NCBI RefSeq assembly: GCF_020400825.1
Contig: NZ_JAINVH010000006.1
Location: forward strand, 1 to 64,000
DNA: 64,000 nt
Source of the DNA: Streptomyces sp. HPF1205
GTDB taxonomy: Bacteria > Actinomycetota > Actinomycetes > Streptomycetales > Streptomycetaceae
Direction: 5' to 3'
Below the pieces are notes generated by a model. It saw only the letters and a list, made by a program, of their open reading frames with translations. It had not been told where the DNA came from and searched no databases. Shown in pieces: positions 2,478 to 44,106 of the stretch; the stretch's first letter is position 1, and each line of letters opens with the position of its first letter. A program made the translations under genes and the position numbers.

Positions 2478-4673
2478 ATGCGCGCCACCTTTCGCCCGGC
2501 CGGCCAGTTGAGACGGTTGATGCGTCCGGCCGGAACCACCGCCCCGCGCCCGTACCCGTACGACCGGTACCGGTCGAGGGCGATCGGCCTCACCGCCGTC
2601 GTCGCCCTGCTGGTGGGGGCCCTCGCCGTCGTCCTCAACGGGCCGGCCGCACAGGCCACCCCCGCGGCGAAGACGCAGACGGCCGCCGCCACCAGCGGCG
2701 GCATCAAGGTCGCCTACTACGACCAGTGGAGCATCTACCAGAACGCCTTCTACCCCAAGGCCCTGGACACCGAGGGCCTGGCCGGCAAACTCGACTACCT
2801 GATCTACGACTTCGAGAACATCGACCCGGCCAACCTGACCTGTTTCGAGGCCACCAAGGCCACCGACCCCGACCCGGGCGGCGAGAGCGACCCGAACGCG
2901 GGCGACGGCGCCGGCGACCAGTTCGCCGACTACCAGAAGACCTTCGACGGCAGCATCAGCGTCGACGGCAGCAGCGACACCTGGAACCAGCCGCTGGCGG
3001 GCAACTTCCACCAGCTCCAGGAGCTGAAGAAGAAGTACCCGCACCTGAAGATCCTGCTCTCGCTGGGCGGCTGGACGTACTCCAAGTACTTCTCCGACGT
3101 GGCGGCGACCTCCGCCTCCCGGCAGAAGTTCGTCTCGTCCTGCGTCGACATGTTCATCAAGGGCGACATCCCGGCCTCCGGCGGCTACGGCGGCCCCGGC
3201 ACCGCGGCCGGCATCTTCGACGGCTTCGACATCGACTGGGAGTACCCGGCCTCCCCGGCCGGCCACCTCGGCAACCACTACAGCCCGAACGACACCGCGA
3301 ACTACACGGCCCTGCTGGCCGAGTTCCGCAGCGAGCTCGACGCCCAGGGCGCCGCTGGGGGTACCTCCCAGGCCGGAGGCTCTGGGGGAGGCAAGCGCTA
3401 CACGCTGAGCGCCGCGCTGCCGGGCGGCCAGGACAAGGCCGCCAAGGTCCAGACCGACCGGATCGGCCGGTACCTGGACTTCGCCGACCTGATGACGTAC
3501 GACATGCACGGCGCCTGGGACACCACCGGCCCGACCAACTTCCAGGACCCGCTGTACCCGTCGGCGAGCGACCCGTCGGGCACCATCCCGCCGGGCGGCG
3601 AGAAGTACGACATCGACTCCGTCGTCAAGGGCTACATCAACGGAGACAGCGCCTACGGCATACCCGGCGGCTTCCCCGCCGCCAAGATCAACCTCGGCAT
3701 CCCCTTCTACTACCGCGGCTGGACCGGAGTGCCGGCGGGCGGCGACCACGGCCTCTACCAGAGCGCCACCGGCCCCTCGGCCGGCCACACGCTCAGCGGC
3801 AACGTGCCGGGCGTGGCCATGTACAAGGAACTCACCGGGGTCGTCGACAACCCGTCGGACACCTTCTGGGACCCCACCACCCAGTCCGCCTGGTTCTACG
3901 ACGGCACCAACTTCTACGGTGGCGAGTCCCCCCAGTCCGTCCAGGCCCGCGCCGACTACATCCACTGCAACGCGCTCGGCGGGGCGATGATGTTCTCCCT
4001 GTACGACCTCGACCCCTCCGCCAAGCTCTTCAACGCCGTGGTCGACGACGTCAACGGCTCCGCCGCGACCTGCTCGGGCGGCGGCGGTACGACGGGTGGG
4101 ACGACCTCCGGCGGGACGACGACGGGTGGGACGACCACCGGCGGTACGACCACGGGCGGGACCACGACGGGTGGTACGACCACGGGCGGCACCACGACCG
4201 GCGGTACGACCACCGGAGGCACCACGACGGGCGGCACCACCACCGGAAGCACCACCGGCGGCACCGGAGGCGGCGCCATCGTCGTCAACGGCGACTTCGA
4301 GTCCGGCGCCCTGTCGCCGTGGACCTGCACGGGCGGCACCGGCAGCGTCGTCTCCTCGCCCGTGCACGGCGGCGCCCACGCCCTGGCGGGCGCGGCGAGC
4401 AACAGCGACGACGCCCAGTGCTCGCAGACCGTCACCGTGCAGCCGGGCCACACGTACACCCTGTCCGGCTATGTGCGGGGCTCCTACGTCTACCTCGGCG
4501 TGACCGGCACGGGCACCACCGACACCAGCATCTGGACCCCGGGCACGGGCGGGTCGTACGCCCAGCTCAAGACCGCCTTCACCACCGGGGCGAGCACCAC
4601 GTCCGTGACCGTCTGGGTGCACGGATGGTACGGCCAGGGCACCTACTACGCGGACGACATCGGCGTCGCCTGA
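2478..4673 (+). CDS. Secreted GH18 chitinase with C-terminal carbohydrate-binding module
   Basis: This extracellular endo-type chitinase of 731 residues starts at ATG 2478, with GGGAGG six bases upstream. A long basic N-region leads into a hydrophobic signal segment (about residues 36-55) ending near AQA. The GH18 barrel carries the catalytic DGFDIDWE (residues 248-255, the last Glu being the proton donor), with SLGGWTYS upstream and MTYDMHGAWD downstream, both typical GH18 strands. A Thr/Gly repeat linker spans about residues 535-598. The C-terminal 130 residues (VVNGDFESG...LSPWTC start) resemble CBM4/9- or CBM16-type modules. A palindromic insertion encodes about 13 Gly/Ser/Ala-rich residues near residue 300. 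Expression is probably under DasR. The substrate is chitin by family; the exact mode is unknown. Confidence 0.92.
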   Translation: MRATFRPAGQLRRLMRPAGTTAPRPYPYDRYRSRAIGLTAVVALLVGALAVVLNGPAAQATPAAKTQTAAATSGGIKVAYYDQWSIYQNAFYPKALDTEGLAGKLDYLIYDFENIDPANLTCFEATKATDPDPGGESDPNAGDGAGDQFADYQKTFDGSISVDGSSDTWNQPLAGNFHQLQELKKKYPHLKILLSLGGWTYSKYFSDVAATSASRQKFVSSCVDMFIKGDIPASGGYGGPGTAAGIFDGFDIDWEYPASPAGHLGNHYSPNDTANYTALLAEFRSELDAQGAAGGTSQAGGSGGGKRYTLSAALPGGQDKAAKVQTDRIGRYLDFADLMTYDMHGAWDTTGPTNFQDPLYPSASDPSGTIPPGGEKYDIDSVVKGYINGDSAYGIPGGFPAAKINLGIPFYYRGWTGVPAGGDHGLYQSATGPSAGHTLSGNVPGVAMYKELTGVVDNPSDTFWDPTTQSAWFYDGTNFYGGESPQSVQARADYIHCNALGGAMMFSLYDLDPSAKLFNAVVDDVNGSAATCSGGGGTTGGTTSGGTTTGGTTTGGTTTGGTTTGGTTTGGTTTGGTTTGGTTTGGTTTGSTTGGTGGGAIVVNGDFESGALSPWTCTGGTGSVVSSPVHGGAHALAGAASNSDDAQCSQTVTVQPGHTYTLSGYVRGSYVYLGVTGTGTTDTSIWTPGTGGSYAQLKTAFTTGASTTSVTVWVHGWYGQGTYYADDIGVA
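3353..3392 (+). repeat. Short palindromic element inserted in-frame within the chitinase
   Basis: CTGGGGGTACCTCCCAG, followed by GCCGGAGGCTCTGGGGGAGG, forms overlapping inverted repeats and encodes a Gly/Ser/Ala-rich stretch between two well-formed GH18 segments (FRSELDAQG and KRYTLSAALPGG). Its look resembles short G-run palindromes that I recall as common in Streptomyces intergenic DNA; the loop of the typA terminator at 44166-44194 is similar. It keeps the frame and sits in what is probably a surface loop. Confidence 0.5.
4081..4272 (+). repeat. Tandem 15-bp coding repeat (Thr/Gly linker)
   Basis: About ten repeats of a TTTGG-type pentapeptide unit link the GH18 domain to the carbohydrate-binding module. 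The DNA copies differ mainly at third positions, so the protein pattern is maintained. Such linkers are flexible and protease-resistant; copy number could vary. Confidence 0.8.
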
Positions 4674-4696
4674 CCCGAGGCCCGCGGCGGACGACC

Positions 4697-4731
4697 GGCC
4701 TCCGTGACGTGCCCTCCGCGTCACGGGGGCC
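4697..4731. terminator. Hairpin between convergent chitinase and glycosyltransferase genes
   Basis: GGCCTCCGTGAC (4697-4708) and GTCACGGGGGCC (4720-4731) form a 12-bp stem with one G-T pair and an 11-base loop, between the stop codons of two convergent genes. No T-run follows, as is usual in Streptomyces. It probably serves both directions. Confidence 0.6.
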
Positions 4732-4760
4732 GGCCCCGCGTACGGCGGACGGGCCCGGGC

Positions 4761-5903
4761 CTACAGCTCCAGGAAGTCGAACAGGTCCTCCCAGCGCCGG
4801 ACGATCTTGTCGGTCGTGTAGCGCTTGACGCTGACCGCGGCCCGCTCGCCCATGGTGTCGCGCAGCCGCTGGTCGCCCATGAGCAGGGCGAGCTTCCCGG
4901 CGAAGGCGTGGATGTTGCCGGGAGCGGCCAGGAAGCCGTCCTCGCCGTCGGCGATGATCTCGCGCACGCCCGGGGCCACGTCGAAGGCGACGCACGGCAG
5001 CCCCGTCGCCATCGCTTCGAGCAGGGTGAGCGGGAACCCCTCGGCGCGGGAGGGCAGGGCGAACACCGAGGCGGCGCGCAGGGCGCCCGGCACGTCGTCG
5101 GTGCGGCCCGCCCACTCCACCGAGCCGTCCAGTTCCAGCCGGGCGGCCTGCCGCTTGAGGAGCTTCTCGTCCTCGCCGGCCCCGTGGATCCGCAGCACCC
5201 AGCCGGGGTGGTCCGCGACGGCCACGGCCCAGGCGTCCAGGAGCATGTCGATGCCCTTCTCCTGGGACAGCCGCGCGACCGCGGCCACGGCCTTCTCCGA
5301 GCGCGGCGAGGTGGACCGCGGCACCCAGGGCAGGGCGTTGGGCATGAAGCCGGCGTTGTTCATGCCCTGCCGTGCCCACAGGTCGGCGTCCTCGCGGGTG
5401 AGCGTCAGGAAGCGGTCGCAGTCCTTGTAGTGGCGCTGCACCCGCTCGAAGCGCGAGGACGCCCGGCAGGCCGCGAACGACTCGTGGCTCATGCCGATCA
5501 CCAGCATCCCCGAGGTGTCGGCGAGGTTCACCCATTCCATGGCCCACACCTGGGCGCAGATCACCACCGCGCCCGGGCCGGCGGCGCGGAACAGCGCGGT
5601 CATCCGCGCGGCCTTCTCCCGCATCCCCGCCCGCCGCCGCGACCGCCCGATCCGGGCCGGGACGTTGGCCAGGTCGGTGAGGGTGCGCGGGCTCCACGCC
5701 GGCGGCGGGTGCTCCTCGTACAGGGTCGTCGTGGCGTACGGCAGCCGCTCGGACGTGCGGTGGTCCACGTGGGAGGGGGTGATGCCGATCATGTGCACGC
5801 GGTGGCCGCGCTCGGTGAGGAGCCGGGCCATCTGGCGCGACCAGGTGGTGACGCCGCCCAGTTCGTCCAGGCTGTTGGTGACGATGAAGATGTCGCGGCT
5901 CAC
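4761..5903 (-). CDS. GT4-family glycosyltransferase
   Basis: This is a cytoplasmic retaining glycosyltransferase of 380 residues with the GT-B fold. The N-terminal acceptor domain has ELGGVTTWSRQMARLL (residues 14-29). The C-terminal donor domain has RLSQEKGIDMLLDAW and the GT4 signature EGFPLTLLE (residues 288-296), with the paired glutamates that contact the nucleotide sugar. The GTG start at 5903 overlaps the TGA of the upstream glycerophosphotransferase gene by four bases, so the two are coupled. The context points to glycosylation of a teichoic-acid-like wall polymer; sugar and acceptor cannot be read from sequence. Confidence 0.9.
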   Translation of the reverse strand: MSRDIFIVTNSLDELGGVTTWSRQMARLLTERGHRVHMIGITPSHVDHRTSERLPYATTTLYEEHPPPAWSPRTLTDLANVPARIGRSRRRAGMREKAARMTALFRAAGPGAVVICAQVWAMEWVNLADTSGMLVIGMSHESFAACRASSRFERVQRHYKDCDRFLTLTREDADLWARQGMNNAGFMPNALPWVPRSTSPRSEKAVAAVARLSQEKGIDMLLDAWAVAVADHPGWVLRIHGAGEDEKLLKRQAARLELDGSVEWAGRTDDVPGALRAASVFALPSRAEGFPLTLLEAMATGLPCVAFDVAPGVREIIADGEDGFLAAPGNIHAFAGKLALLMGDQRLRDTMGERAAVSVKRYTTDKIVRRWEDLFDFLEL

Positions 5904-8779
5904 TCGCTGCTCCCCGGACGGAAGAACCTGTCCACGATCTGGCGGGCGGCGTCGCCCTTGTCGTACTCGCCGAACTCCGCCACGAACTGCTTGCGGCGCG
6001 GCGCCCATTCGCTGTCGGCGTCCGGAAGGCCGCCGTCCAGCACGCGGTAGAGCCCCTCGACGTCGCGCACCACCGGGCCGGGGGCGTGCTTGACCAGGTC
6101 GAAGTACGTGCCGCGGTCGTCCTTGACGTACTCGTCGTAGTCGTAGGCGAAGAAGACCATCGGCCGGTCGAGGAGGGCGTAGTCGAACATCACGGACGAG
6201 TAGTCGGTGATCAGCGCGTCGGCGGCCAGGAACAGCGGGGTCACGTCGTGGACGGACGTCACGTCGACGACCCGGCCGCGTACGGACGGCGGGAGCACCA
6301 CCGTGTTGAGGTAGTGGGAGCGCACCAGCAGCGTGCAGCGGTCGCCGTACCGGTCGGCGAACTCGTCGAAGTCCAGCGGCGGTTCGAACTTGGCGACGCC
6401 GCCGGTCGCGGTGCTGCGGAACGTCGGCGCGTACAGCAGGATCCTGCGGTCCTCGGGGATGCCCAGCTCGCGTACGATGCCGGGCCGCACCCGCTGCCCG
6501 CTCAGGCGCTCGGCCTCGCGGGCCGCGACCAGGGCGTCGTTGCGCGGGTAGCCCGAGCGCAGCACCACCTCGTCCCTGAGGCGGAAGGCCGGCACCAGGG
6601 TGCGCGCGTCGTGCTCGGAGCGGATCAGGAAGTGGTCGAACCTGTCCAGGATCCGCTGGTAGTCGGCCTGCTGGTCCTTGGTCCGCACCCGCAGCTGGGG
6701 GCTGTCGAAGCCCATCTTCTTCAGCGCCGAGCCGTGCCAGGTCTGGATGTACGTGGTCTCCGGGCGCTTGGTGAGCTTCAGCGGGAAGCCCTGGTTGTCG
6801 ATCCAGAACTCCGCCTGGGCCAGCGCCCGCAGATAGGGGTACGACCAGCGTTTGACGAGGGTGGCGTCCGGCGGGAAGTCCTCGGGCCGGTCGGCGTAGG
6901 CCCAGATCGCGGTGAACTCCACGCCCTGCCGGCGCATCTCCTCGTAGATCGCCCGCGGACTGTCGCTGTACTGCTTGCCGAGGTGGCTCTCGAAGACCAC
7001 CGTGCCCTTCCTGACCGGCAGCCTGCTGAAGACGTCGTGGTACACGCGGATCTTGCTCTCGCCGGAACGCGCGTACCTGCGGGCGTTCTTGGCCTTGCGC
7101 AGCCCGCCGCGGGCCACCGTCCCGGGCACGCCCCGCAGGGCCCGGTCCAGCCCGGCCCGGCTGCGGCGGCTCACCGCGCCCTGCGCGGCCTGGACGAACG
7201 CCAGATGGCCCCGGCCGGACGTCTCGGCCTCCAGGCGGTCCGCGACCAGCCGGGACAGGCGCGGGCGGATCCGCAGCGGCACCGAGGTGTCCAGCTCGGC
7301 GTCGCCGACGGTGAGCGGCATCGGCATGGCCGCCGTGCCGTCCACGGTCAGCAGCAGCTGGATGTCCCAGACCGGGTCCAGCAGGCCCAGCGGGCGCAGG
7401 GTCCCGCTGATGTCGGCGTCCGCGCTCCACTCCAGGTGGTCGCCGGCGTGCCGCACCTGGACGCCGGGGAAGGCGAACGCCCGCACGCCCTTGCGCCGGG
7501 CGCGCAGCTCCAGGGCCGCCTCCAGCCGCGCGCCCGGGGCGATCCGGCCCAGCGGGTTGACGACGGAACCGGCCAGCGAGATCCCGGTGCCGGTCTGCCG
7601 GTAGCGGTCCAGCTTCGCGCGCAGGGTGAGCTGGTGCAGCGGCCTGGAGTGGTAGCCGAGATCGGTGACGTCGAGGACGGCGCGGGCCCGCTGCTCGTCC
7701 AGATGCTCCTCGCACCAGTAGACCCGGCCGTCCCGCTCGACCAGCGGCACCGACAGCTTCTGCCGGTTGATGAGGGTGTCGATCGCCGGGTTGAGGTTGG
7801 CCCAGTCCTCCTCCATGAGCAGGTAGGCGCAGATCCGGTGGATCGGCTCCAGCCCCTCGTACGCCTCCTGGGAGATCCGTGTCATGTACTCGCGCGCCAT
7901 GCGGGCGAACTGGTGGCGGTAGCCGTCGTCGAGGAACGGCAGGTCGCGCAGGTGCAGTACCAGGTCGTGCTTGAGGAACTTGGTGTCCTTGTGCAGCTTC
8001 AGCCCGTCCAGGCCGCGTTCGCGGAAGATCGCGTCGATCTCGCGGTGGATCCTGACCCGGTGGGCGAAGTTGTCGACCTCGTGGCGGCGGTTGCTGATCG
8101 AGCGCCTGGTGCCGCTGTCGTCCACCATCCAGTTGTAGACGTGGTGGGGGATCAGCGTGATCCGCTCGGCGGCCAGGTAGGCGCGGGCGGAGAACAGCAG
8201 GTCCTCGTAGTGGATGCCGACCGGGAAGAGCAGGTCGTTGCCGAGCAGGAAGTCGCGCCGGTAGCACTTGTTGGTCGACAGGGTGTCGTAGACCAGCAGG
8301 TCGGGCAGTTCCATGATCGACTCGATGGTCCGGGTCGAGGTGTACAGCCACGGGTACCAGTCGACCGCCTTGCCGGTACGCGTCTGCACCCGCTTGGTCA
8401 GCCCGGACACCATCTGGGCGCCACCGGCGCGGGCCGCGTCGAGGAAGTTGCGGCAGGCGTGGCGCTCCAGGGTGTCGTCGCTGTCCAGGAAGACCAGGTA
8501 CTCGCCGCGTGCCTCGGCGATGCCGCGGTTGCGCGGGCCGCCGCAGCCGCCGCTGTTCTCGTCGAGCCGGAACGCCCGCACCCGGTCCGGGTGCCGCTCC
8601 GCCAGGCGCTCGGCCGCCTCGTAGCTGCCGTCGGTGCTGCAGTCGTCGACGATCACCACCTCGACGCCGCGCAGCGACTGCTCCAGCGCCGACCGGACCG
8701 CCGTGGGCAGGCGCTCCGCGTCGTTGTAGACGATGACCACCACGCTCAGGGCAGGTCCCGGCTCCGTGTTCATCCGCAT
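5900..8779 (-). CDS. Bifunctional GT2 glycosyltransferase / CDP-glycerol glycerophosphotransferase (TagF-type)
   Basis: This large fusion has about 959 residues. Residues 10-230 are a GT-A (GT2) domain with VDDCSTDGS and the metal/nucleotide motif DSDD (about residues 99-102). The C-terminal part (about 580-945) is a TagF/TarF-like glycerophosphotransferase with QTWHGSALKKMG (near 680) and ITDYSSVMFDYALLDRP (near 860). A middle region of about 300 residues looks like beta-rich linker domains. By family it would polymerise or transfer glycerol phosphate from CDP-glycerol and add a sugar, making a wall teichoic-acid-type polymer at the inner membrane face. The ATG at 8779 is preferred: TACTGT eight bases upstream could give a near-leaderless message. 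ATG 8773 is an alternative. Confidence 0.88.
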   Translation of the reverse strand: MRMNTEPGPALSVVVIVYNDAERLPTAVRSALEQSLRGVEVVIVDDCSTDGSYEAAERLAERHPDRVRAFRLDENSGGCGGPRNRGIAEARGEYLVFLDSDDTLERHACRNFLDAARAGGAQMVSGLTKRVQTRTGKAVDWYPWLYTSTRTIESIMELPDLLVYDTLSTNKCYRRDFLLGNDLLFPVGIHYEDLLFSARAYLAAERITLIPHHVYNWMVDDSGTRRSISNRRHEVDNFAHRVRIHREIDAIFRERGLDGLKLHKDTKFLKHDLVLHLRDLPFLDDGYRHQFARMAREYMTRISQEAYEGLEPIHRICAYLLMEEDWANLNPAIDTLINRQKLSVPLVERDGRVYWCEEHLDEQRARAVLDVTDLGYHSRPLHQLTLRAKLDRYRQTGTGISLAGSVVNPLGRIAPGARLEAALELRARRKGVRAFAFPGVQVRHAGDHLEWSADADISGTLRPLGLLDPVWDIQLLLTVDGTAAMPMPLTVGDAELDTSVPLRIRPRLSRLVADRLEAETSGRGHLAFVQAAQGAVSRRSRAGLDRALRGVPGTVARGGLRKAKNARRYARSGESKIRVYHDVFSRLPVRKGTVVFESHLGKQYSDSPRAIYEEMRRQGVEFTAIWAYADRPEDFPPDATLVKRWSYPYLRALAQAEFWIDNQGFPLKLTKRPETTYIQTWHGSALKKMGFDSPQLRVRTKDQQADYQRILDRFDHFLIRSEHDARTLVPAFRLRDEVVLRSGYPRNDALVAAREAERLSGQRVRPGIVRELGIPEDRRILLYAPTFRSTATGGVAKFEPPLDFDEFADRYGDRCTLLVRSHYLNTVVLPPSVRGRVVDVTSVHDVTPLFLAADALITDYSSVMFDYALLDRPMVFFAYDYDEYVKDDRGTYFDLVKHAPGPVVRDVEGLYRVLDGGLPDADSEWAPRRKQFVAEFGEYDKGDAARQIVDRFFRPGSSE

Positions 8780-32546: not shown

Positions 32547-34430
32547 ATGGATGCGAAGCCTGTTTCCGGGGCGCGCGCGGCCGGGCGGGGACACGGGCGG
32601 GGGTACGGGTGGGTGGACGGGCCGGGGGTCGGGGCCGGGCACACGCGGCGGCCCGCGGGCGGACCCGGCCCTCGCGGGCGGCTCGCCGTACGCGCCGCGG
32701 CCGTCGTCACGGCGGCCGTCACCGCCGGTACGGCCCTCGCCGCCTGCTCCTCCGGCACCCCCCACGCGGCGGGCACGGCCGGCACGGACGTGGCGACCGT
32801 CGCGCGGGCCGGGGTCCGCGACGGCGGCACCCTGCGCTGGGCCGTCGACGCGATGCCGCGCACGCTCAACGCCTACCAGGCCGACGCCGACTCCGGCACC
32901 GAGACCGTGGCCGGTGCCGTGCTCCCCTCGATGTTCCGGCTCGACGCCCACGGCAACCCGCGCACCGACCCCGACTTCGTGACCAGCGCGAAGGTGACCG
33001 CGCAGGAGCCGCGGCAGGTGGTCACGTACAAGCTGAACCCGAAGGCCAGGTGGAGCGACGGGCGGGCGCTCGGCGCGGCCGACTTCGCCGCCCAATGGAA
33101 AGCGCTGAACGGCAAGAACACCGCGTACTGGACCTCGCGCAACGCCGGCTACGACCGGATCTCCGACGTCCGCCAGGGCGCCGGCCGCACCGAGGTCCGC
33201 GTCACCTTCGCCACGCCCTACGCCGACTGGAAATCGCTGTTCAGCCCGCTCTACCCGAAGTCCGTCACATCCGACCCGGACGTCTTCAACGACGGCTCCC
33301 GCACCGAACTGCCCGCGGCGGCGGGCCCCTTCGCCCTCAAGGCGGTCGACGCCAAGGCCGGTACGGTCACGCTGGTGCGCAACCCCTCGTGGTGGGGGGC
33401 GCGCGCCAAACTGGACGCGCTGGTGCTCACCGCCGTACCGCGCGGCAAGCGGGTCGCGGCGCTCGCGGCCGGGACGCTCGATCTGGCCGAGATCGAACCC
33501 GGGTCCCTGGCCGCGGCCCGCCGCACCCGCGGGGTCGGCGTACGCAAGGCCCCCGACGCGGCCTACGCGCAGCTCGCCATCAACGGCAGTACGGGCCCGC
33601 TCGCCGACGAGCGGGTGCGGCACGCCGTGGCCCGCGCCATCGACCGCAAGGCCATCGCCAAGGCGGTGCTCGCCCCGCTCGGGCTGCCCCCCACCGCGCT
33701 GGGCAACCACCTGGTCCTGCCCTCCCAGGACGGCTACGCCGACCACTCCTCGGCGCTCGGCACGGGCGGCCTCGCCCAGGCCAAGGCGCTGCTCGCCGAC
33801 GCCGGGTGGCAGCGGCCGGCCGTGAAGGAGGGCGAGAAGGCGGCCGCGGGACCGGGCCGTACCGCCGTCTCCGGCGCGGTCACCGTCGTCGAGCCCGCCG
33901 ACGCGGTGCTGAAGAAGGGCAAGGAGCTCTCGCTGCGGTTCGTGCTCCCGGCGAACTCGCCCACCCTGGACGACGTGGGCAACCGGATCGCCCGGATGCT
34001 GTCCGGGATCGGGGTGCGCACGGAGCTGAGGCGGGTGGACGACACCAGTTTCTTCCAGGACCACGTGGCCTCCGGCGACTTCGACCTGGCCCTGTACTCC
34101 TGGCCCGGCACCCCCTTCCCGGCCACGGACGACGCCCCCATCTTCGCCAAGCCGGTACCGGCACCCGACGGCTCCCTGGCCGTCGCCGAGAACTACACCC
34201 GCGTCGGCACCGACCAGATCGACCAGCTCCTGGCCCGCGCGGGCACCGAACTCGACCCGGCCGAGTCCCGCGCCCTGACCGCCCAGGCCGACTCCCGCAT
34301 CTGGGCCGCCGCGGCCTCCATCCCCCTCTACCAGCGCCCCGAGGTCGTCGCCCTGCGCACCACGGTGGTGAACGCGGGCGCCTTCGGCTTCGAGACCCCG
34401 GTGTTCCAGAACATCGGCTTCCGCAAGTAG
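32547..34430 (+). CDS. Family-5 peptide-binding lipoprotein, orphan
   Basis: This has 627 residues from ATG 32547 (GGAGGTG about ten bases upstream; a GTG 22 codons later is an alternative that would shorten a long N-region). The lipobox TALAAC puts the lipid Cys at residue 67. The mature protein has the SBP_bac_5 pattern: GGTLRWAVDAMPRTLNAY, KARWSDGRALGAADFAAQW, and YAQLAINGSTGPLADERVRHAVARAID. It binds peptides or similar solutes outside the membrane for an ABC importer. No permease or ATPase gene adjoins, so it must share a transporter encoded elsewhere or act as a sensor. Confidence 0.87.
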   Translation: MDAKPVSGARAAGRGHGRGYGWVDGPGVGAGHTRRPAGGPGPRGRLAVRAAAVVTAAVTAGTALAACSSGTPHAAGTAGTDVATVARAGVRDGGTLRWAVDAMPRTLNAYQADADSGTETVAGAVLPSMFRLDAHGNPRTDPDFVTSAKVTAQEPRQVVTYKLNPKARWSDGRALGAADFAAQWKALNGKNTAYWTSRNAGYDRISDVRQGAGRTEVRVTFATPYADWKSLFSPLYPKSVTSDPDVFNDGSRTELPAAAGPFALKAVDAKAGTVTLVRNPSWWGARAKLDALVLTAVPRGKRVAALAAGTLDLAEIEPGSLAAARRTRGVGVRKAPDAAYAQLAINGSTGPLADERVRHAVARAIDRKAIAKAVLAPLGLPPTALGNHLVLPSQDGYADHSSALGTGGLAQAKALLADAGWQRPAVKEGEKAAAGPGRTAVSGAVTVVEPADAVLKKGKELSLRFVLPANSPTLDDVGNRIARMLSGIGVRTELRRVDDTSFFQDHVASGDFDLALYSWPGTPFPATDDAPIFAKPVPAPDGSLAVAENYTRVGTDQIDQLLARAGTELDPAESRALTAQADSRIWAAAASIPLYQRPEVVALRTTVVNAGAFGFETPVFQNIGFRK

Positions 34431-34573
34431 CGCGCTGAGTTCCCCGGAGTGGCGCGGCGGCCGGCCGCGGGCGGGAAGGCCCCCGCCCGCGGTCGGCCGC
34501 TTTCACCGTTTTCACCGCTTTCACCCGGGCGGGTGACAGCAGCCGAATTGGTACCGGGTTCCGGACCTGCCTG

Positions 34574-34579
34574 TATAGC
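34574..34579 (+). promoter_or_regulatory. -10-like TATAGC ahead of the first toxin gene
   Basis: TATAGCGT begins at 34574, nine bases before the ATG at 34589. The same octamer TATAGCGT occurs at 38423, just before the start of the second toxin gene. Its position suggests a shared -10 region and a leaderless or nearly leaderless message for both modules. Confidence 0.5.
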
Positions 34580-34588
34580 GTCAATGCT

Positions 34589-34945
34589 ATGGCTTGGGGT
34601 ACCGTGGAACTCGAACCGGAGGTGGCGCAATGGCTCGCTGCTCTCGACGACAAGCGCTGGGCGCAGGCGCTGATGCATCTGGACCTGCTGGAGGAGCGCG
34701 GTGTGCTGCTCGGCGATCCGTATACGCGTCAGCTGGACGGCAAGCTGCGGGAGCTGCGTTTCTACTGCGGCGAGCAGCGTGTCCGTGTGACGTATTGGAT
34801 CGCTGCCGGACGGCGCATCATCATGCTGACCGTGTTCACCAAGACGCGGATGCGCGAGGTGGATGAGATCGAGCGCGCCCGGCGGGCGTTGGAGCGGTGC
34901 AGGGGCGAAGGACACACCACGGACGAGGACGAGGAGGCGGTGTGA
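34589..34945 (+). CDS. HigB/RelE-type toxin (phage Gp49-like)
   Basis: The 118-residue protein has a RelE/HigB-like fold: ELEPEVAQWLAAL helix, the strand segment GKLRELRFYCGEQRVRVTYW and IIMLTVFTKTRMREVDEIERA. Members cleave mRNA on the ribosome. The stop overlaps the GTG of the HTH antitoxin gene by four bases, the usual toxin-first (HigBA) order. It is clearly homologous to the toxin at 38432. Codon use is less GC-biased than that of neighbours, suggesting transfer. Confidence 0.87.
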   Translation: MAWGTVELEPEVAQWLAALDDKRWAQALMHLDLLEERGVLLGDPYTRQLDGKLRELRFYCGEQRVRVTYWIAAGRRIIMLTVFTKTRMREVDEIERARRALERCRGEGHTTDEDEEAV

Positions 34946-35250
34946 GCGAGGCAGAGGGCAGGCCGAGCCTGGCGGACGCGCGCCGGGCGCGGCGCATGAC
35001 GCCGGAGATCGCAGAGGAGTACGCCGCCGCGCGGCTTCGGTTCGAGCTGGGTGAGGCGGTGAGGAAGCGGCGGCTGGAACTCCACCTGTCGCAGAGCGCG
35101 CTCGGAACGCGGGCCGGCCTGACACAGTCGGCCGTGGCGCGCTTCGAGGCCGGGGGTACGGTTCCGACCATCCCCGTGCTGGAGCGATTGGCGCGGGCCC
35201 TGGAACTGGAGCTGCGGGTGCAGTTCGTACCCTACGCCGCCTCCGCGTGA
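34942..35250 (+). CDS. HigA/XRE-type antitoxin
   Basis: The 102-residue protein has an XRE helix-turn-helix over residues 36-90 (LGEAVRKRRLELHLSQSALG, then TQSAVARFEAGGTVPTIPVL). The N-terminal 30 residues probably wrap the toxin. GTG 34942 overlaps the toxin stop (GTGA), with GAGGAGG just upstream. It would neutralise the toxin and repress the shared promoter. Confidence 0.87.
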   Translation: MSEAEGRPSLADARRARRMTPEIAEEYAAARLRFELGEAVRKRRLELHLSQSALGTRAGLTQSAVARFEAGGTVPTIPVLERLARALELELRVQFVPYAASA

Positions 35251-35294
35251 CCGGGCGCCGGCTCCGCGTCCTGCTATGAAGCCGGGGCGCGCGG

Positions 35295-36527
35295 CTACGG
35301 GCGCAGGCGGTTCTCCGCGACGGCGATCCGGTGGAGGCCGGGGGTCAGCTCGCGGGCCCGGGCGAGGAGGTCCTGCGCCTTCCCGGGCCGGCGGAGAAGA
35401 GACAGCGCCATCGCGCGAGTGGCCAGCGCGGCGGCACGGCCGAGGGCGTCGGGGGCGACGCGGGCGGCACCGGCCGCGAGGCGCTGGGCGCGGGCCATGT
35501 CTCCCCGCAGGAGCGCCTCCATCGCGGTCAGGTCGGACAGCCCGCCGGGAACCGGCCGGCTCTGCAACGCGGTCCGGACCGCGCCGATCTGGGGGAGTAC
35601 GACCTCGGGCGCCCACAGTCCGGCGGCGGCGCCGTCCGCGAGCGTCAACGCGTACAGCCGCAGCGCCGCGGCCTTGAGCTCTGCCGCCTCGCTGTCCGCG
35701 TACAGCTCCATCGCCTGGTGTGCGGCCTCGTCAAGGCGGCCTTCCGCCCAGGCCAGTACGGCGGTCACGGCCCGGCGGCGCTGCCCCGCGTACGGCGCGG
35801 CGGCGTCCAGTGCCCGCCGCGCCTCATCGAGCCGGCCCGCGCTCATCGCGCGGACCGCGGCCAAGCTCGCCGGATCGAAGACCCATTCCGCCAGCCGCGG
35901 TGTGCCGTCGTTCCGATGCGGCCGGAACAGCAGCGACCACGCGGAGGTCGCGCCCCGCGGGTTCAGTACGAGCAGCATCACCGTGAAAGCGGCACACCCG
36001 TACCCCGCGAGCCGGAGTCCGTCCCCGCCCGACGCGATCAGCACGGCCGAGACGCCCACGAGGACCAGCAGGCGGGCCGCGGTCGTCAGCCGCATCCAGC
36101 GGGGCAGACCGGGCCGGTCGAGGAAGGCCAGATGCGGTACGAGCAGCAGCACGGGTACCGGCCGCAGGGTCACCATGACCCCGCGCACAACGGCGGACCC
36201 CAGCCTGGGCCCCACGCCCACCGACAGTGTCAGCAGTCCCGTTCCCGCCGGCTGGGCCAGCGCCACGAACAGCAGCGTGGACAGATTCAATCCGAGCGCG
36301 AATCCGCCCAGGAACCACCACGGCCCGTTGCCGCCGTCGGGGAACCCGTTCACGGCGGCGGCCACGCCGGCAGCCCCGGCCACCACGAGGGGAACCCAGC
36401 GTGTCGCCCGCCCGCCGCCCGCCGGGACGATCACCCCGGGTGGCAGCAGCGGCGGCACGGGCGGCGTGTCGCCACCCGCCGCCGGCTCTTGTCCCGCGGG
36501 CCCGTTCGCATCCTCTGACGTGTGCAC
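35295..36527 (-). CDS. Membrane protein with C-terminal TPR-like helical repeats
   Basis: This has 410 residues from GTG 36527 (AGGA about nine bases upstream). The N-terminal 40 residues are Pro/Gly-rich. About six hydrophobic segments follow (for example WVPLVVAGAAGVAAAVNG, WWFLGGFALGLNLSTLLFV, LLVLVGVSAVLIAS). The C-terminal 180 residues are Ala/Leu/Arg-rich helical pairs (AVRAMSAGRLDEARRALDAA, ALLRGDMARAQRLAAGAARV) with TPR-like spacing. No catalytic motif was seen. The function is unknown; the layout resembles actinobacterial M50-family-like or TPR membrane proteins but the HExxH motif is absent. Confidence 0.7.
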   Translation of the reverse strand: MHTSEDANGPAGQEPAAGGDTPPVPPLLPPGVIVPAGGGRATRWVPLVVAGAAGVAAAVNGFPDGGNGPWWFLGGFALGLNLSTLLFVALAQPAGTGLLTLSVGVGPRLGSAVVRGVMVTLRPVPVLLLVPHLAFLDRPGLPRWMRLTTAARLLVLVGVSAVLIASGGDGLRLAGYGCAAFTVMLLVLNPRGATSAWSLLFRPHRNDGTPRLAEWVFDPASLAAVRAMSAGRLDEARRALDAAAPYAGQRRRAVTAVLAWAEGRLDEAAHQAMELYADSEAAELKAAALRLYALTLADGAAAGLWAPEVVLPQIGAVRTALQSRPVPGGLSDLTAMEALLRGDMARAQRLAAGAARVAPDALGRAAALATRAMALSLLRRPGKAQDLLARARELTPGLHRIAVAENRLRP

Positions 36528-36624
36528 GGCACCGGATCCTGACAGAGCCCGGGCGGTGCGGCCAAACACGTCCCGCCCCGCCCGCACCCCGACTCCCCGC
36601 CGTGCCACGCCATTTGGGGGCGCG

Positions 36625-36828
36625 TCAGCCCGCGAGCGTCCCGTTCCCGACCGCGGTGACGAACGCGGCCCAGTCAGCCGCCGGGAAGACCAGGACGGGC
36701 CCCTCGGGGTCCTTGGAGTCGCGGACGGGTATGAGCCCGGGGACGCCGTCGGCGACTTCGAGGCATTCGCCGCCTTGGCCACCGCTGTAGCTGGACTTGC
36801 GCCAAGTTGCCTGTTGCAGGTCGGTCAT
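36625..36828 (-). CDS. DUF397 protein
   Basis: The 67-residue protein is a complete DUF397: WRKSSYSGGQGGECLEVAD, VRDSKDPEGPVLVFPAADWAAFV. These small proteins are abundant in Streptomyces and are paired with XRE/DUF5753 regulators. Its ATG overlaps the stop of that regulator gene (ATGA). Family members modulate the DNA-binding partner in development and antibiotic control, in the manner of the whiJ/abaA-type clusters. Confidence 0.93.
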   Translation of the reverse strand: MTDLQQATWRKSSYSGGQGGECLEVADGVPGLIPVRDSKDPEGPVLVFPAADWAAFVTAVGNGTLAG

Positions 36829-37649
36829 GTCGCTAGGTCCTTCAGCGCAGATCGGATGAGGTCTAGAGACCTGTCCCGCGGCAAGGCGGCGGCCACCAGA
36901 AGATCGTAGGCCACCCGCGTGGATTCCACGTCCGCTTGGCGTTGAACGATATTGCCGGTGAACAGAGCCTCTACGTACAGCACATCATCGCGGTCCGCGT
37001 AGCTCCAGAGGGTGAACGAGCCATCTGTGGCCGCATGAGCGCCCGTCGCGAACGGGAGAACCTGGATCACGACGTTCTTGTGCTCGGCCATGTCGAGCAG
37101 GTGCTCCAACTGGCCGAGCATGACGGCCTTCCCTCCGATGGGCCGCTTGAGCACTGCTTCGTCCAGCACCGTCCAGAAGAGCGGTGGAGCAGCGCGGGTG
37201 AGGATCGACTGCCGGTTCCGCCGTGCCGCGACGTCGGCCTCGATTCTTTCAGCGCTCTCCCGTGGCCGCGCCTCGCGCATCAGCGCCCGCGCGTAATCCT
37301 CGGTCTGCAACAACCCGTGCACCACCTGGGACTGGTACGTGCAGATCCGCGTCGCGCGCGCCTCCTCCCGCGCCGCGCCCTGCCACCACGCCGGAAACGC
37401 CTCCATGTGCACCCGGCTCAGAATGCGTTCGAACTGCCCGCCCGTCTCCAGGGCCTGGTCCACCTCCCTCGTGAACGCCTCGGACGGGGTCCGCCGTCCC
37501 GCCTCCACGTTGTAGAGCTGCTGGAAGCTGTACGAGGTCTGGGCGGCGAGCTCGCGGACCGACAATCCCCGCCGCTCGCGGGCCTGCTGGAGTTCCTCGC
37601 CGTAGTACGTCAGCCAGGACATCCTGGGCTGGGCGTCATCCGTCCCCAT
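36825..37649 (-). CDS. XRE-family regulator with DUF5753 domain
   Basis: The 274-residue protein has an N-terminal helix-turn-helix (residues 15-70, ELQQARERRGLSVRELAAQT and QLYNVEAGRRTPSEAFTREV) and the DUF5753 domain (about 95-265; QSQVVHGLLQTEDYARALM, VLDEAVLKRPIGG, VIQVLPFATGAHAATDGSFTL). With DUF397 and the divergent ATPase it forms the whiJ-like three-gene module of actinomycetes. A perfect 8-bp inverted repeat in the divergent promoter is its likely operator. Confidence 0.93.
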   Translation of the reverse strand: MGTDDAQPRMSWLTYYGEELQQARERRGLSVRELAAQTSYSFQQLYNVEAGRRTPSEAFTREVDQALETGGQFERILSRVHMEAFPAWWQGAAREEARATRICTYQSQVVHGLLQTEDYARALMREARPRESAERIEADVAARRNRQSILTRAAPPLFWTVLDEAVLKRPIGGKAVMLGQLEHLLDMAEHKNVVIQVLPFATGAHAATDGSFTLWSYADRDDVLYVEALFTGNIVQRQADVESTRVAYDLLVAAALPRDRSLDLIRSALKDLAT

Positions 37650-37664
37650 CTGTGCTCATTTCCG

Positions 37665-37688
37665 CGTGTTCAACCGCAAGTGAACACG
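37665..37688. promoter_or_regulatory. Operator candidate for the XRE/DUF5753 regulator
   Basis: CGTGTTCA (37665-37672) and TGAACACG (37681-37688) are perfect inverted arms separated by eight bases. The site starts 16 bases upstream of the XRE ATG and 85 bases before the divergent ATPase gene, suited to autoregulation and possibly control of both genes. Confidence 0.6.
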
Positions 37689-37772
37689 CCCGTGCTCTGT
37701 CACTCACCGTCCATCGGGGTCAGCCTATGAGTAACCAGTGACACTCGGTAGCGGATTGTGAAAGGTCGGACC

Positions 37773-38210
37773 ATGGGGACCCCACTGCCAACGACAAGCG
37801 AACCTGCGTCCCCGGTGGTGAAACGGTGGCCCGCCATAGGGCGCGCGGTGGCCCGCGCCCGGCGCGACCTGGCCGCCGTACTGTCCGGCTGGGACCTGAC
37901 CGCGCTGACGGATCCCGCGACCCTCGTGCTGAGCGAGCTGATGACCAACAGCGTCCGCCACGGGAGGGTGCCGGGGCGGGAGATCGAGACCAGGTACGAA
38001 CGGGTGGCGGACGGCCTGCGCCTGGAGGTCCACGACGCGAACCCGGTGTGGCCGCTGATGGGCAAGCCGGCGGAGGGCGACGAGGCGGGTCGCGGCCTCC
38101 TGATCGTCGACACCCTCACCAGGGGCCAGTGGGGTGTCGCCGACCGCACCGGCGTCGGGAAAAGGGTGTGGGCGTCGATCACCGCGGATCAGGACGAGGA
38201 GACTGCGTGA
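37773..38210 (+). CDS. RsbW-like ATP-binding (HATPase_c_2) protein
   Basis: This has 145 residues from ATG 37773, with AAGG seven bases upstream. N-box LVLSELMTNSVRHGRVPGR and G-box DEAGRGLLIVDTLTRGQWGV identify the GHKL ATPase fold of anti-sigma factor kinases. No sensor domain or phosphorylatable His is present. It is divergent from the XRE/DUF397 pair and completes the regulatory trio. It probably binds or phosphorylates a small regulatory partner; which one is unknown. Confidence 0.88.
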   Translation: MGTPLPTTSEPASPVVKRWPAIGRAVARARRDLAAVLSGWDLTALTDPATLVLSELMTNSVRHGRVPGREIETRYERVADGLRLEVHDANPVWPLMGKPAEGDEAGRGLLIVDTLTRGQWGVADRTGVGKRVWASITADQDEETA

Positions 38211-38431
38211 GCGGGGCGCAGGATGGACCAGGTCTTGCGGAGGCTCGGCACAACGCCCATTCAGCGCCCCGATGGTGCCATGTCTGGAACCGACTGCGCT
38301 GCGGTGCACCACGGGTCCACGGACTTGCTTTTCGCAGGTCAGCGAGGCCTTTCCTGGAGTGCTCCCCGATGGGATCGAGCTTGAGTGCGGCTCTCCGGAA
38401 CTTGAGTATGTCGGCGACGACATATAGCGTG

Positions 38432-38821
38432 ATGTGCGTGAAGCCGCTGTTCGGTATCGAGCTCGAACCCGAGGTGCGTGACTGGCTGGAGGCGTTGCCG
38501 GCGAAGCATTTTCTCAAGGTTGATGAGTACGTCGGTCTGCTCGCGGAGCATGCCACCGCCCTGGGCGAACCCTACGCCCGTCACCTTGGCGACGGCGTTC
38601 GCGAGTTGCGCCCCACGCTGGACGGCGCGGACATACGGATCACGTACTGGCTCACGCCGGACCGCACCGCGGTGTTGCTGACGGTCTTCCGCAAAACCCG
38701 CATGCGCGAAGACATCGAGGTCGAGCGCGCCAAGCGGGCGAAGAAGACATGTGAGGCCGAGCACGGTCCGGCGCACGATGAGTTCGTCCGCAGCGTCCAG
38801 GAAGGTGAGATCGAACGATGA
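38432..38821 (+). CDS. Second HigB/RelE-type toxin
   Basis: The 129-residue protein is homologous to the toxin at 34589: IELEPEVRDWLEALP, DGVRELRPTLDGADIRITYW, LLTVFRKTRMREDIEVERA. ATG 38432 is preceded by TATAGCGT at 38423, as in the other module; GTG 38429 or 38438 are possible starts. Its last codons overlap the antitoxin ATG (ATGA). It probably cleaves mRNA. The acidic tail after residue 108 is longer than in the first module. Confidence 0.85.
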   Translation: MCVKPLFGIELEPEVRDWLEALPAKHFLKVDEYVGLLAEHATALGEPYARHLGDGVRELRPTLDGADIRITYWLTPDRTAVLLTVFRKTRMREDIEVERAKRAKKTCEAEHGPAHDEFVRSVQEGEIER

Positions 38822-39159
38822 GTCACAGCCGGTACAGGACATTGCGTGAGCGCAAGCTCGCCGAGGGTTTCACCGAGCCCACCGAGGTCGCCGAGGCACG
38901 CCGCGAGATTCGCATGTCCATGGCCCTGGCCAAGGCCGTCTACGACCGCCGCACGGAACTCGGCCTCACCCAGGGCGAACTCGCCGAGCGGGCCGGACTC
39001 ACCCAAGCGAAAATCTCCCGTATCGAGGGCTCGGACACCGTCCCCACCCTTCCGCTCCTGGCCAGACTCGCCGAAGCCCTCGACGCCACCCTCAACATTG
39101 CCTTGGACGATGGCGACACCCGTGTCACCTTCACCGCCCACCGTCAGGAAGCAGCCTGA
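38818..39159 (+). CDS. Second HigA/XRE-type antitoxin
   Basis: The 113-residue protein has an XRE domain over residues 36-92 (ALAKAVYDRRTELGLTQGEL and TQAKISRIEGSDTVPTLPLL). The start is fixed by the ATGA overlap with the toxin. The DNA for residues 63-98 is repeated, with about nine-tenths identity by eye, at 40759-40869. The end of this gene abuts the truncated ATP-grasp gene, so it marks one side of a rearrangement. Confidence 0.87.
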   Translation: MSHSRYRTLRERKLAEGFTEPTEVAEARREIRMSMALAKAVYDRRTELGLTQGELAERAGLTQAKISRIEGSDTVPTLPLLARLAEALDATLNIALDDGDTRVTFTAHRQEAA

Positions 39160-39193
39160 GTCGAATCCCCGCAGTCGCGAGCGCTGAGGTTGA

Positions 39194-39640
39194 CGGTGGC
39201 TGCGCGACGGCCGCCGGAACGGCGTTCCCACCCATCTGGTCGACCCGGAAGAAAACGACGACTCGGTGCGGCTGACCGCTCACCTGTTCCAGGAATGGAT
39301 ACCCAAGGCGTACGAGGTACGCCTGACAGCCGTCGGCCGTAAGTTGTTCGCGGCCGAGATCCATGCCGGCTCGGAAGCAGCCAAGGTCGACTGGCGAAGC
39401 GACTACGACGCCTTGGAATACGAGGTCGCCGCAGTACCGGACCCGGTGCGCCGAGCTGTCCTGGGCTGGATGCGGCACTTCGGGTTGACTTTCGGTGCCT
39501 TCGACTTCGCCGTAACGCCTGAGGGTGAGTGGGTGTTCTTCGAGTGCAACCCCTCCGGGGAATGGTCGTGGATACAGCAGAGGACGAACCTGCCCATCGC
39601 CGCTGCCGTCGCCGCACTGCTCATGGGAGAAGCATCATGA
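39194..39640 (+). pseudogene. 5'-truncated ATP-grasp ligase of a graspetide (RiPP) locus
   Basis: Only the C-terminal half of an ATP-grasp peptide ligase remains (about 148 residues). The frame opens after a TGA at 39191; recognisable sequence begins near PTHLVDPEENDDSVRLTAHL and continues with FQEWIPKAYEVRLTAVG, KLFAAEIHAGSEAAKVDWR and the ATP-grasp metal/ATP motif FFECNPSGEW. The N-terminal pre-ATP and central domains, about 170-200 residues, are absent, and the antitoxin gene ends 34 bases upstream. The stop overlaps the methyltransferase ATG, preserving the original operon. Without its N-terminal half it should not ligate a peptide. A short product from GTG 39266 could still be made and couple translation of the methyltransferase. 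Confidence 0.82.
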
Positions 39641-40719
39641 CTGAGACCGTGGAGGAGCGGGCCCGGGTACTGCGCCAGCGGCTTGCGGCGGAGCTGGAGG
39701 AGCGGGGCAGTCTCGTGGCCGCTTGGCGAAAGCCGTTCGAGGAGGTGCCGCGGCACGTCTTCGTGCCGGAGGTGTGGGCCGGGCCGGACAGGCTCGTCAC
39801 CGCCGCCGACCCGGAGTGGCTGGAGCTGGTGTACGCCGATGACGTGCTCGTCACGCAGCTCACGGAAGGGGTCGCGACATCGTCTTCGACGGCTCCCGGG
39901 CTGATGGCCGCCATGCTGGGCGCTCTGGACGTACAAGAAGGGCACCGCGTGCTGGAGGTCGCCACCGGCACGGGGTACAACGCCGCGCTGCTCGCCGCGT
40001 TCGTCGGGGCCGGCAACGTGACGTCGGTCGAGGTGGATCCGCGGTTGGCGCGGCTGGCCGCAGAACGGCTGCGAGGCGCCGGGTATCCGGTCACCGTCGT
40101 CACCGGGGACGGCAGGGCCGGGCATCCGGCCGGCGCACCGTACGACCGGCTCATCGCGACCTGCGGCCTTCCCGCCGTGCCCCGGGACTGGATTGCGCAG
40201 GTACGTCCAGGGGGGATCATCGTCTGCCCCATCGGCTCGGGCACGGTGCGGCTCATTTTGAGCGCGGGCGGCGAAGCGCGCGGGCACTTCCTGCCGACGC
40301 CGTCGTACTTCATGGGCGTACGGGCCAACAAGGACGACACTGGTTCCGCCCGCTACCCCGGCGAGCCCGGGGACCCCGTCGAGGGCACCTCCAGCCTGGC
40401 TGCCGAGGCGCTGTTCTGCACGGACGCGTTCCTCTTTCTGCTCTCCCTCGCGCTGCCGGGCTTGGTGCTCGCCTCCGAGACGGACGAGGACGGGAATCTC
40501 ACCGGCGCTCGGTTATGGACAGCCGAGGGCTCCTGGGCGCATGCCGAGGGGCACGCGGTCCGCCAGTCCGGCCCGCGGCGACTGTGGTCGGTGGCGGAAC
40601 GGGTCCACGAGCTGTACGAGGGCCAGGGACGCCCCGAGCGGCAACGTTTCGGACTGAGGGTCACCGCGGAGGGCCAGGAGCTGTGGCTGGACGAGCCCGG
40701 CAACGTAGTGGGGCTGTGA
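39637..40719 (+). CDS. PIMT-like methyltransferase of ATP-grasp peptide maturation systems
   Basis: The 360-residue protein is related to protein-L-isoaspartate O-methyltransferase, with the SAM motif VLEVATGTGYNAALLA (about residues 106-121), and a long C-terminal extension typical of the methyltransferase that partners graspetide ligases. In characterised actinobacterial graspetides such enzymes methylate an Asp side chain, leading to aspartimide. The ATGA overlap with the truncated ligase confirms the original operon. Codon 293 is TTA (40513-40515), the only in-frame TTA I found in the window, so translation may depend on the bldA tRNA. The gene looks intact although its ligase is broken. 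Confidence 0.87.
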   Translation: MTETVEERARVLRQRLAAELEERGSLVAAWRKPFEEVPRHVFVPEVWAGPDRLVTAADPEWLELVYADDVLVTQLTEGVATSSSTAPGLMAAMLGALDVQEGHRVLEVATGTGYNAALLAAFVGAGNVTSVEVDPRLARLAAERLRGAGYPVTVVTGDGRAGHPAGAPYDRLIATCGLPAVPRDWIAQVRPGGIIVCPIGSGTVRLILSAGGEARGHFLPTPSYFMGVRANKDDTGSARYPGEPGDPVEGTSSLAAEALFCTDAFLFLLSLALPGLVLASETDEDGNLTGARLWTAEGSWAHAEGHAVRQSGPRRLWSVAERVHELYEGQGRPERQRFGLRVTAEGQELWLDEPGNVVGL

Positions 40720-40758
40720 TTTCCGGGGGAGGCGCGGCGGCGAAGCTCGGGGCCGCGC

Positions 40759-40869
40759 CAAGCGGCGCAAATCTCCCGTATCGAGGGCTCGGGCATCGTC
40801 CCCACTCCTCCGCTCCTGGCCACACTCGCCGAAGCCCTCGACGCCACCCTCGACATCGCCCTGGACGGG
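40759..40869 (+). pseudogene. Antitoxin gene fragment (second copy)
   Basis: In one frame this reads QAAQISRIEG, then SGIVPTPPLLATLAEALDAT and LDIALDG, nearly identical to residues 63-98 of the antitoxin at 38818. The DNA matches closely over about 110 bases with one extra codon. No N-terminal half or toxin precedes it. It is a remnant of a duplicated or recombined HigBA-type module and, with the intact copy, brackets the graspetide remnants. Confidence 0.8.
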
Positions 40870-40942
40870 CGAGGTCGATCCCCGGCGGGCTTGTGCCCCG
40901 CACCGGACTCCGGTGACGGGTACCAGCCCGCCGGGCACGGCC

Positions 40943-41866
40943 TCACAGCGGGCGGGTGAACATCTTCCGGTTGGCGAAGTTGCGGTAGCCGGCGCGCTGG
41001 AACGCCTTGGCCATGCCGATGTTGCCCGCGTCGCAGTCCCCGCGGATCTCGCCGAAGCCCGCTTCGACCAGCACGTGCGTACCCCGGGCGACCACGGCTG
41101 TGGCGTAGCCCCGGCCCCGGCCGGCCCTCGCGACCGCGACCAGGCCGATCACCGCCGAGGTGACCGTACGCGCCGGCATGCTGAGCGCCACGGGCGTGTC
41201 CGCCGGGTCGTAGCCGATCTCGAACCAGCCGGGCCGGTGGTCCATCTCCAGCATGTCGGCCACGTTGCGTTCGGCAGCGCCGCGCAGGCCGTGCTCGGCG
41301 ATCTCGGCCTGGAAGATCGAATCCGCGGTGTCGGTGAACGTGTCGGCCAGCAGCTCCACGAACGGCTCCTCGCCCAGGTCGGCCAGGGAGCGCCAGTGCA
41401 GCCGCTCGTCCTGGGCCGGCATCGGGTCGCCCGCGGTCCATGCGAATCGGCGGCCGTCGCGGGCGACGGTGAAACCGGCGTCGGCGAGCAGCGTCTCGCG
41501 CAGCCGCGGATCCCGTTGGAACTGGGGGGCCTGGGCCGGCGTGTCCAGCACGTGTCCCTGGACCTTCGCGCCGAGTTCGCGGGCCTGCTGGGCGGCGTAC
41601 GCCAACAGCGCCCGGCCGGTGTCCGGGCCGCCCGGTTCCAGCAGCACGATGTCCGTCGGAACGTTTCTTCCGGGGATCGTCCACAGCACCACGTTGCCCG
41701 CCACCCTGCCGTCGTGCTCGGCCACCAGACACCACTCGGGCCGGGTGCACCCGCTCTCCAGCAGACTCGTCAGGTAGGCGGCGGTGGCGGCATTGCGTTC
41801 ACCGTCGTCCGCGAAGGCCGTCAGCGCGGGCAGCTCGTCGGGCCGGGCGGTACGGATTGTCAGCAT
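40943..41866 (-). CDS. GNAT-family N-acetyltransferase, two-domain
   Basis: The 307-residue protein has a C-terminal GNAT domain: the acetyl-CoA-binding segment AVARAGRGRGYATAVVARG (near residues 240-258) and GDCDAGNIGMAKAFQRAGYRN near the end. The N-terminal half (MLTIRTARPDELPALTAFAD, AGNVVLWTIPG) looks like a second, degenerate GNAT fold. Tandem GNAT proteins acetylate small molecules or antibiotics; the substrate is unknown. It points toward the antitoxin fragment and away from typA. Confidence 0.87.
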   Translation of the reverse strand: MLTIRTARPDELPALTAFADDGERNAATAAYLTSLLESGCTRPEWCLVAEHDGRVAGNVVLWTIPGRNVPTDIVLLEPGGPDTGRALLAYAAQQARELGAKVQGHVLDTPAQAPQFQRDPRLRETLLADAGFTVARDGRRFAWTAGDPMPAQDERLHWRSLADLGEEPFVELLADTFTDTADSIFQAEIAEHGLRGAAERNVADMLEMDHRPGWFEIGYDPADTPVALSMPARTVTSAVIGLVAVARAGRGRGYATAVVARGTHVLVEAGFGEIRGDCDAGNIGMAKAFQRAGYRNFANRKMFTRPL

Positions 41867-42238
41867 GGTCGGCTTCCTTCCTCATCGCTCTCCGCAGAAC
41901 AGGCAGGGTACGTAGGGGGAGGAGGAAGCAGGGGAAGGGGTGCGGGTCAACGCCGGCCAGGCACAGGCGAGCAGGACCGCCGCCTGCTTGCCCCGCGTGA
42001 GCCAAGGACCGGTACGGCTCACCGCCCCTCCGGTTCGTCACCCGGAGTGCATCGGTGCGTATCGTCGGTTACGCGGTGGCCCGCGCGCCGCCCGTACCGC
42101 CTCGTTCGGTGCGAGAGCGGGCCCCGCGCCGCGCCCCGTACCATGGGGGGCAAGGCCGTGGCGGGAGGTTGCCCGGCGGGCGAGCGCTCACGAGGGGCGC
42201 GACGCCGACCCACGAAACCCCGGGAGAAGCGCCGCAGC
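41867..42238. other. Divergent interval between the acetyltransferase and typA
   Basis: No gene is seen in 372 bases. It must contain both promoters. A purine-rich stretch (GGGGGAGGAGGAAG near 41915) does not fit the ribosome-binding site of either gene. No clear -35/-10 pair was identified. Confidence 0.45.

Positions 42239-44106
<1,868 letters not shown>

Follow-up and report, generated by a model that had tools for sequence, protein, structure and literature searches.

A probably recent truncation of a graspetide operon that leaves its methyltransferase gene intact in Streptomyces sp. HPF1205

Introduction

Why does a complete peptide methyltransferase gene persist behind a ligase gene that has lost half of its length? 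This question is raised by a locus in Streptomyces sp. HPF1205, which we analysed within a window of 64,000 nucleotides. In characterised graspimiditides, a precursor peptide is first crosslinked by the ligase, and this crosslinked peptide is the substrate from which the methyltransferase produces an aspartimide (PMC13001092; PMC10787088). A sequence-only reading of the window described a broken graspetide locus that is either decaying or has kept its methyltransferase for another use, such as protein repair or the modification of a precursor encoded elsewhere. We conclude, with a probability of about 0.8, that the locus is a recently decapitated group-13 graspetide (graspimiditide) operon, whose methyltransferase, TgmC, probably has no substrate.

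Results and discussion

The ligase gene retains only its 3′ part. TIGR04187 (GRASP_SAV_5884) matches the forward-strand frame at 39194-39640 only at profile positions 171-311 of 312 (E 1.7e-55), and the profile search scores this match at 188 bits against a cutoff of 350 bits for the full protein. The C-terminal DFAVTPEGEWVFFECNPSG block is still present but the N-terminal half is gone, as the sequence-only reading had claimed, and the full-length ATP-grasp ligase of a group-13 graspetide locus is therefore lacking. Without its N-terminal half, the fragment should be inactive in ligation. The earlier description of a broken ligase thus holds, whereas its left edge at 39160 does not, since DNA alignment with the closest intact orthologues (G070 and G078) places the remnant, tgmB′, at 39203-39640 on the forward strand. 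The open frame begins at 39194, shortly upstream of the first homology at about 39203.

Directly 3′ of the remnant, and overlapping it by 4 nt (ATGA), lies tgmC (39637-40719, forward strand), with a Shine-Dalgarno-like GGGAGAA preceding its ATG. The gene encodes a full-length RiPP-type, PIMT-like O-methyltransferase (PAMT) of 360 amino acids with a C-terminal extension, which matches TIGR04188 over positions 1-362 of 363 (E 5.8e-95, with a score of 318.7 bits that falls under the curated cutoff of 380) and PF01135 (E 6e-31). These matches bear out the earlier view of a complete methyltransferase that still overlaps the ligase remnant. The position of a TIGR04188 methyltransferase directly behind the ligase is that of group-13 graspetide loci, and in the tree TgmC falls in a clade with orthologues from intact operons (bootstrap 94). 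The methyltransferase family, the gene order, the ligase family and the overlap of the ligase and methyltransferase genes are all shared with group-13 graspetides or graspimiditides such as fuscimiditide, amycolimiditide, albusimiditide and SsfA (PMC13001092; PMC10787088). Unlike in those loci, the precursor and the N-terminal half of the ligase are missing here, so that no product is expected.

The PIMT domain of TgmC would also fit a general isoaspartate repair enzyme, and two characterised graspimiditide methyltransferases do accept isoAsp in their peptides (PMC13001092). However, a canonical PIMT has no RiPP-type C-terminal extension, and TgmC, which spans TIGR04188 fully, belongs to the family that carries one. 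Characterised members of this family are highly specific for their modified or folded substrate (PMC13001092), and we regard a repair role as highly improbable.

Among 395 genomes of the family, the closest orthologues are found in G070 and G078, both of which carry a whole tgmA-tgmB-tgmC operon. The remnant is 74% and 68% identical to their ligases, and TgmC is 59% and 57% identical to their methyltransferases, respectively. In G070 (locus L189), TgmA is encoded at 4528-4743, TgmB at 4740-5717 and TgmC at 5714-6814, with successive genes overlapping by 4 nt. The precursors of both genomes are small and carry TNWDS.NDDT.DPY near their end. The comparison with relatives that the sequence-only reading had proposed thus shows the short ligase to be a loss rather than a standard form.

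This loss is not confined to the window. Pairing ligases and methyltransferases by hand across the genus, we count 40 full-length TgmB proteins, 32 of which have a full methyltransferase behind them, and 6 of 38 tgmB-tgmC pairs that combine a ligase fragment with a full methyltransferase. The broken pairs are those of the window, G019 (C83 and C220), G034 (C1:1888298), G008 (C1:4325365) and G005 (C2:5511378). The first ligase profile position kept differs among the six fragments (about 169, 247, 223, 266 and 280, with one fragment internally deleted), and given these differing breakpoints the six broken loci look like independent losses rather than instances of a short enzyme form. The 40 full-length proteins likewise speak against a short ligase as the standard form of the family, and together with the intact relatives these counts sustain the earlier description of a broken, decaying graspetide locus. 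We also note that in G002 two tgmB-tgmC pairs (C1:6411994-6414020 and 6448057-6450083), separated by 36 kb, have identical scores, which suggests a recent duplication.

The missing parts were sought throughout the genome of HPF1205 itself, a draft assembly of 8.4 Mb in 187 contigs that is 99% complete. No match to the TgmA family TIGR04186 exceeds the cutoff of 25 bits in the assembly (best 16.1 bits), and TgmA of G070 as a query finds nothing similar in the genome (best E 1.4). The precursor gene that a group-13 operon has upstream was thus found neither next to the locus nor elsewhere in the assembly, consistent with the earlier remark that none is seen. The N-terminal half of the ligase was not found anywhere in the assembly either. 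As no precursor was found, TgmC is probably an enzyme without a substrate. The earlier suggestion that it modifies a precursor encoded elsewhere appears unlikely for the same reason, and because characterised graspimiditide methyltransferases leave linear precursors unmodified (PMC13001092). This genome-wide search, which the sequence-only reading had called for, returned as the sole other ATP-grasp protein of the TIGR04187 family a distant full-length ligase on another contig (C102, 86 bits). Action of TgmC in trans with that ligase is unsupported, given its distance and its different context. The C102 ligase (L196, G000:C102:62000-70500) has no adjacent TgmC; nearby, the same strand carries a frame for a subtilisin-like protease.

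To date the break we took the ligase fragment as a clock, because a ligase shortened by half should be inactive. We relied on codon-position counts and relative-rate tests, the nearest TgmC orthologues at 57-59% identity being too diverged for synonymous rates. The remnant aligns with G070 over 148 codons without a gap. All 11 invariant columns are preserved in the remnant, as are 19 of the 20 columns conserved at 90%. In the maximum-likelihood tree its distance to the outgroup L106 is 1.01, compared with 1.01 and 1.07 for the functional orthologues, and the picture is similar elsewhere. Tajima tests of the remnant detect no excess of changes relative to G078 with any of nine outgroups, and an excess relative to G070 with two of nine. 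We also simulated neutral evolution under assumed parameters for indels and substitutions. At 0.05 and 0.1 substitutions per site, the remnant stays open with a chance of 0.11 and 0.03, respectively, and the chance that TgmC stays intact without selection is 40% at 0.01 and 18% at 0.02. Since the remnant is open, keeps its invariant residues and evolves like the functional copies, the break looks recent, unless selection acts on the ligase fragment itself, a possibility that no evidence supports.

TgmC, for its part, keeps 44 of 46 conserved columns. Because the ligase fragment is as well preserved, the intactness of TgmC mainly points to a recent break. Recency can thus explain the intact methyltransferase without special retention, an argument that is permissive and not a proof. 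Two observations count against recent decay. The first is the excess of changes that the remnant shows relative to G070 with two outgroups, and the second concerns TgmC. The distance of TgmC to the outgroup in the same kind of tree is longer than that of its orthologues (1.44 versus 1.23 and 1.28), its own branch measures 0.54 versus 0.19 and 0.24, and Tajima tests find a weak excess of changes, significant with two of nine outgroups and located mostly in the methyltransferase domain. Recency leaves this lengthened branch unexplained, and a changed function could account for it.

The lengthened branch would fit a TgmC that has been kept as a stand-alone aspartyl methyltransferase of peptides or proteins, either pamtide-like or acting on a host protein, and expressed by read-through from the upstream higBA operon. 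The complete gene with its own Shine-Dalgarno-like sequence and conserved columns is consistent with such a role, as is the recurrence of broken ligases beside intact methyltransferases. PAMTs also act as the primary modification enzymes in pamtide clusters (1,539 proteins), and of 9,408 PAMTs, 3,653 lack an assigned partner (PMC10787088). Like pamtide and imiditide loci, the present locus holds a PAMT without a functional partner ligase. In contrast to them, it has no recognised adjacent precursor gene, and its ligase fragment marks descent from a graspetide operon. No small Asp-containing precursor of the pamtide type was recognised beside the methyltransferase when the list of open reading frames was inspected by eye, and the upstream slot is occupied by the ligase remnant. 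The equal preservation of this remnant, which is expected to be dead, shows that preservation is not specific to TgmC, so that the earlier proposal of a methyltransferase kept for another use is not supported. Moreover, where genes are ordered A-B-C, 5′ losses can recur without selection. We consider a stand-alone role unlikely. The broader idea that a graspetide methyltransferase, once released by ligase loss, turned into a stand-alone enzyme that modifies Asp and is controlled by the toxin-antitoxin module, and that this is a recurrent route to pamtide-like or protein-modifying PAMTs, seems less likely still.

The recently broken operon that we favour matters little as a single locus. The recurrence of intact tgmC behind broken tgmB (6 of 38 pairs) makes a modest general point, as genome mining that hooks on the methyltransferase may gather dead graspetide loci among the unassigned PAMTs. 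Such loci would be distinguishable by ligase 3′ fragments directly upstream of the methyltransferase.

The break in tgmB adjoins an intact putative HigBA-type toxin-antitoxin module at 38432-39159, which consists of a HigB/Gp49-type toxin gene (38432-38821, forward strand; PF05973, E 1e-13) and an HTH antitoxin gene (38818-39159, forward strand; PF01381/PF13560) that overlap by 4 nt. Overlapping toxin and HTH antitoxin genes are shared with HigBA-like (Gp49/HTH) modules, whereas the present putative module differs in adjoining a truncated graspetide operon. The module with its upstream edge (38402-39159, 758 bp) is 86% identical in G007 and 77-78% identical in G030, and in G007 the module and the graspetide loci lie on separate contigs. 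No similarity to relatives was found for the junction between the antitoxin stop and the first TgmB homology (39160-39202). Behind tgmC, a degenerate antitoxin 3′ end (40765-40867, forward strand) forms a 103-nt direct repeat of 39007-39109 with 91% identity. The sequence-only reading of the locus names neither the upstream pair nor this antitoxin remnant.

The 103-nt repeat flanks the ligase remnant, and in a draft of 187 contigs an intact locus might have been misjoined at repeated antitoxin sequence. However, the two copies of the repeat share only 91% identity, the match stops about 90 nt short of the junction, and an assembly that is 99% complete yielded the missing parts nowhere else. 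The locus also lies inside a 295.8-kb contig, which speaks against a misjoin and rejects truncation of the ligase at a contig edge. An assembly artefact is thus very unlikely.

We propose that a deletion or replacement recently removed tgmA, along with the N-terminal half of tgmB, from a tgmA-tgmB-tgmC operon, and that the left edge of this event lies directly behind the toxin-antitoxin module. In intact homologous operons, TgmB is established to crosslink the precursor TgmA through ester or amide bonds; TgmC then methylates a single Asp in the crosslinked core, and the core collapses to an aspartimide. This is the chemistry expected of intact graspimiditide loci. Here, with neither precursor nor crosslinking, the most likely outcome is no product and an idle methyltransferase, which may persist because too little time has elapsed for its decay.

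The surroundings of the locus are themselves variable. A stretch of about 7.7 kb (34433-42116) lies between a conserved solute-binding-protein-like gene, ending at about 34432, and typA, whose homology starts at about 42117. These two genes are neighbours in 10 relatives (L235-L244), in which the flanks are 77-93% identical and the interior has no homology. By this comparison, the stretch is a lineage-specific segment, and the chromosomal site that holds it is variable. Upstream of typA, seven of the relatives have gaps of 29-283 bp, and the remaining three carry different inserts, 1.4-5.3 kb long. The locus looks like ordinary gene decay, since breaks of this kind recur in related species, and adds another decayed RiPP locus at a variable place in the chromosome. 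As to how the segment arrived, tRNA-targeted integration is rejected by the lack of a tRNA in 28-48 kb, and short repeats at the segment ends by a best end match of 9-11 nt. Rfam has no matches in 34000-42500, and promoter and terminator scans, which are weak for high-GC actinobacteria, found nothing.

Other genes of the segment deserve a brief description. A second Gp49-type toxin/HTH antitoxin pair lies at its left end (34592-35250, forward strand) and shares 45% and 47% identity with the pair at 38432-39159, which brings the antitoxin-like sequences in the segment to three, counting the remnant at 40765. Genes for DUF397, HTH-DUF5753 and histidine-kinase-like ATPase proteins stand side by side at 36625-38210, and we take them to resemble the whiJ/abaA-like regulatory trio of Streptomyces. 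Similar ATPase and/or DUF5753 genes are also found near the graspetide loci L193, L195, L199 and L203.
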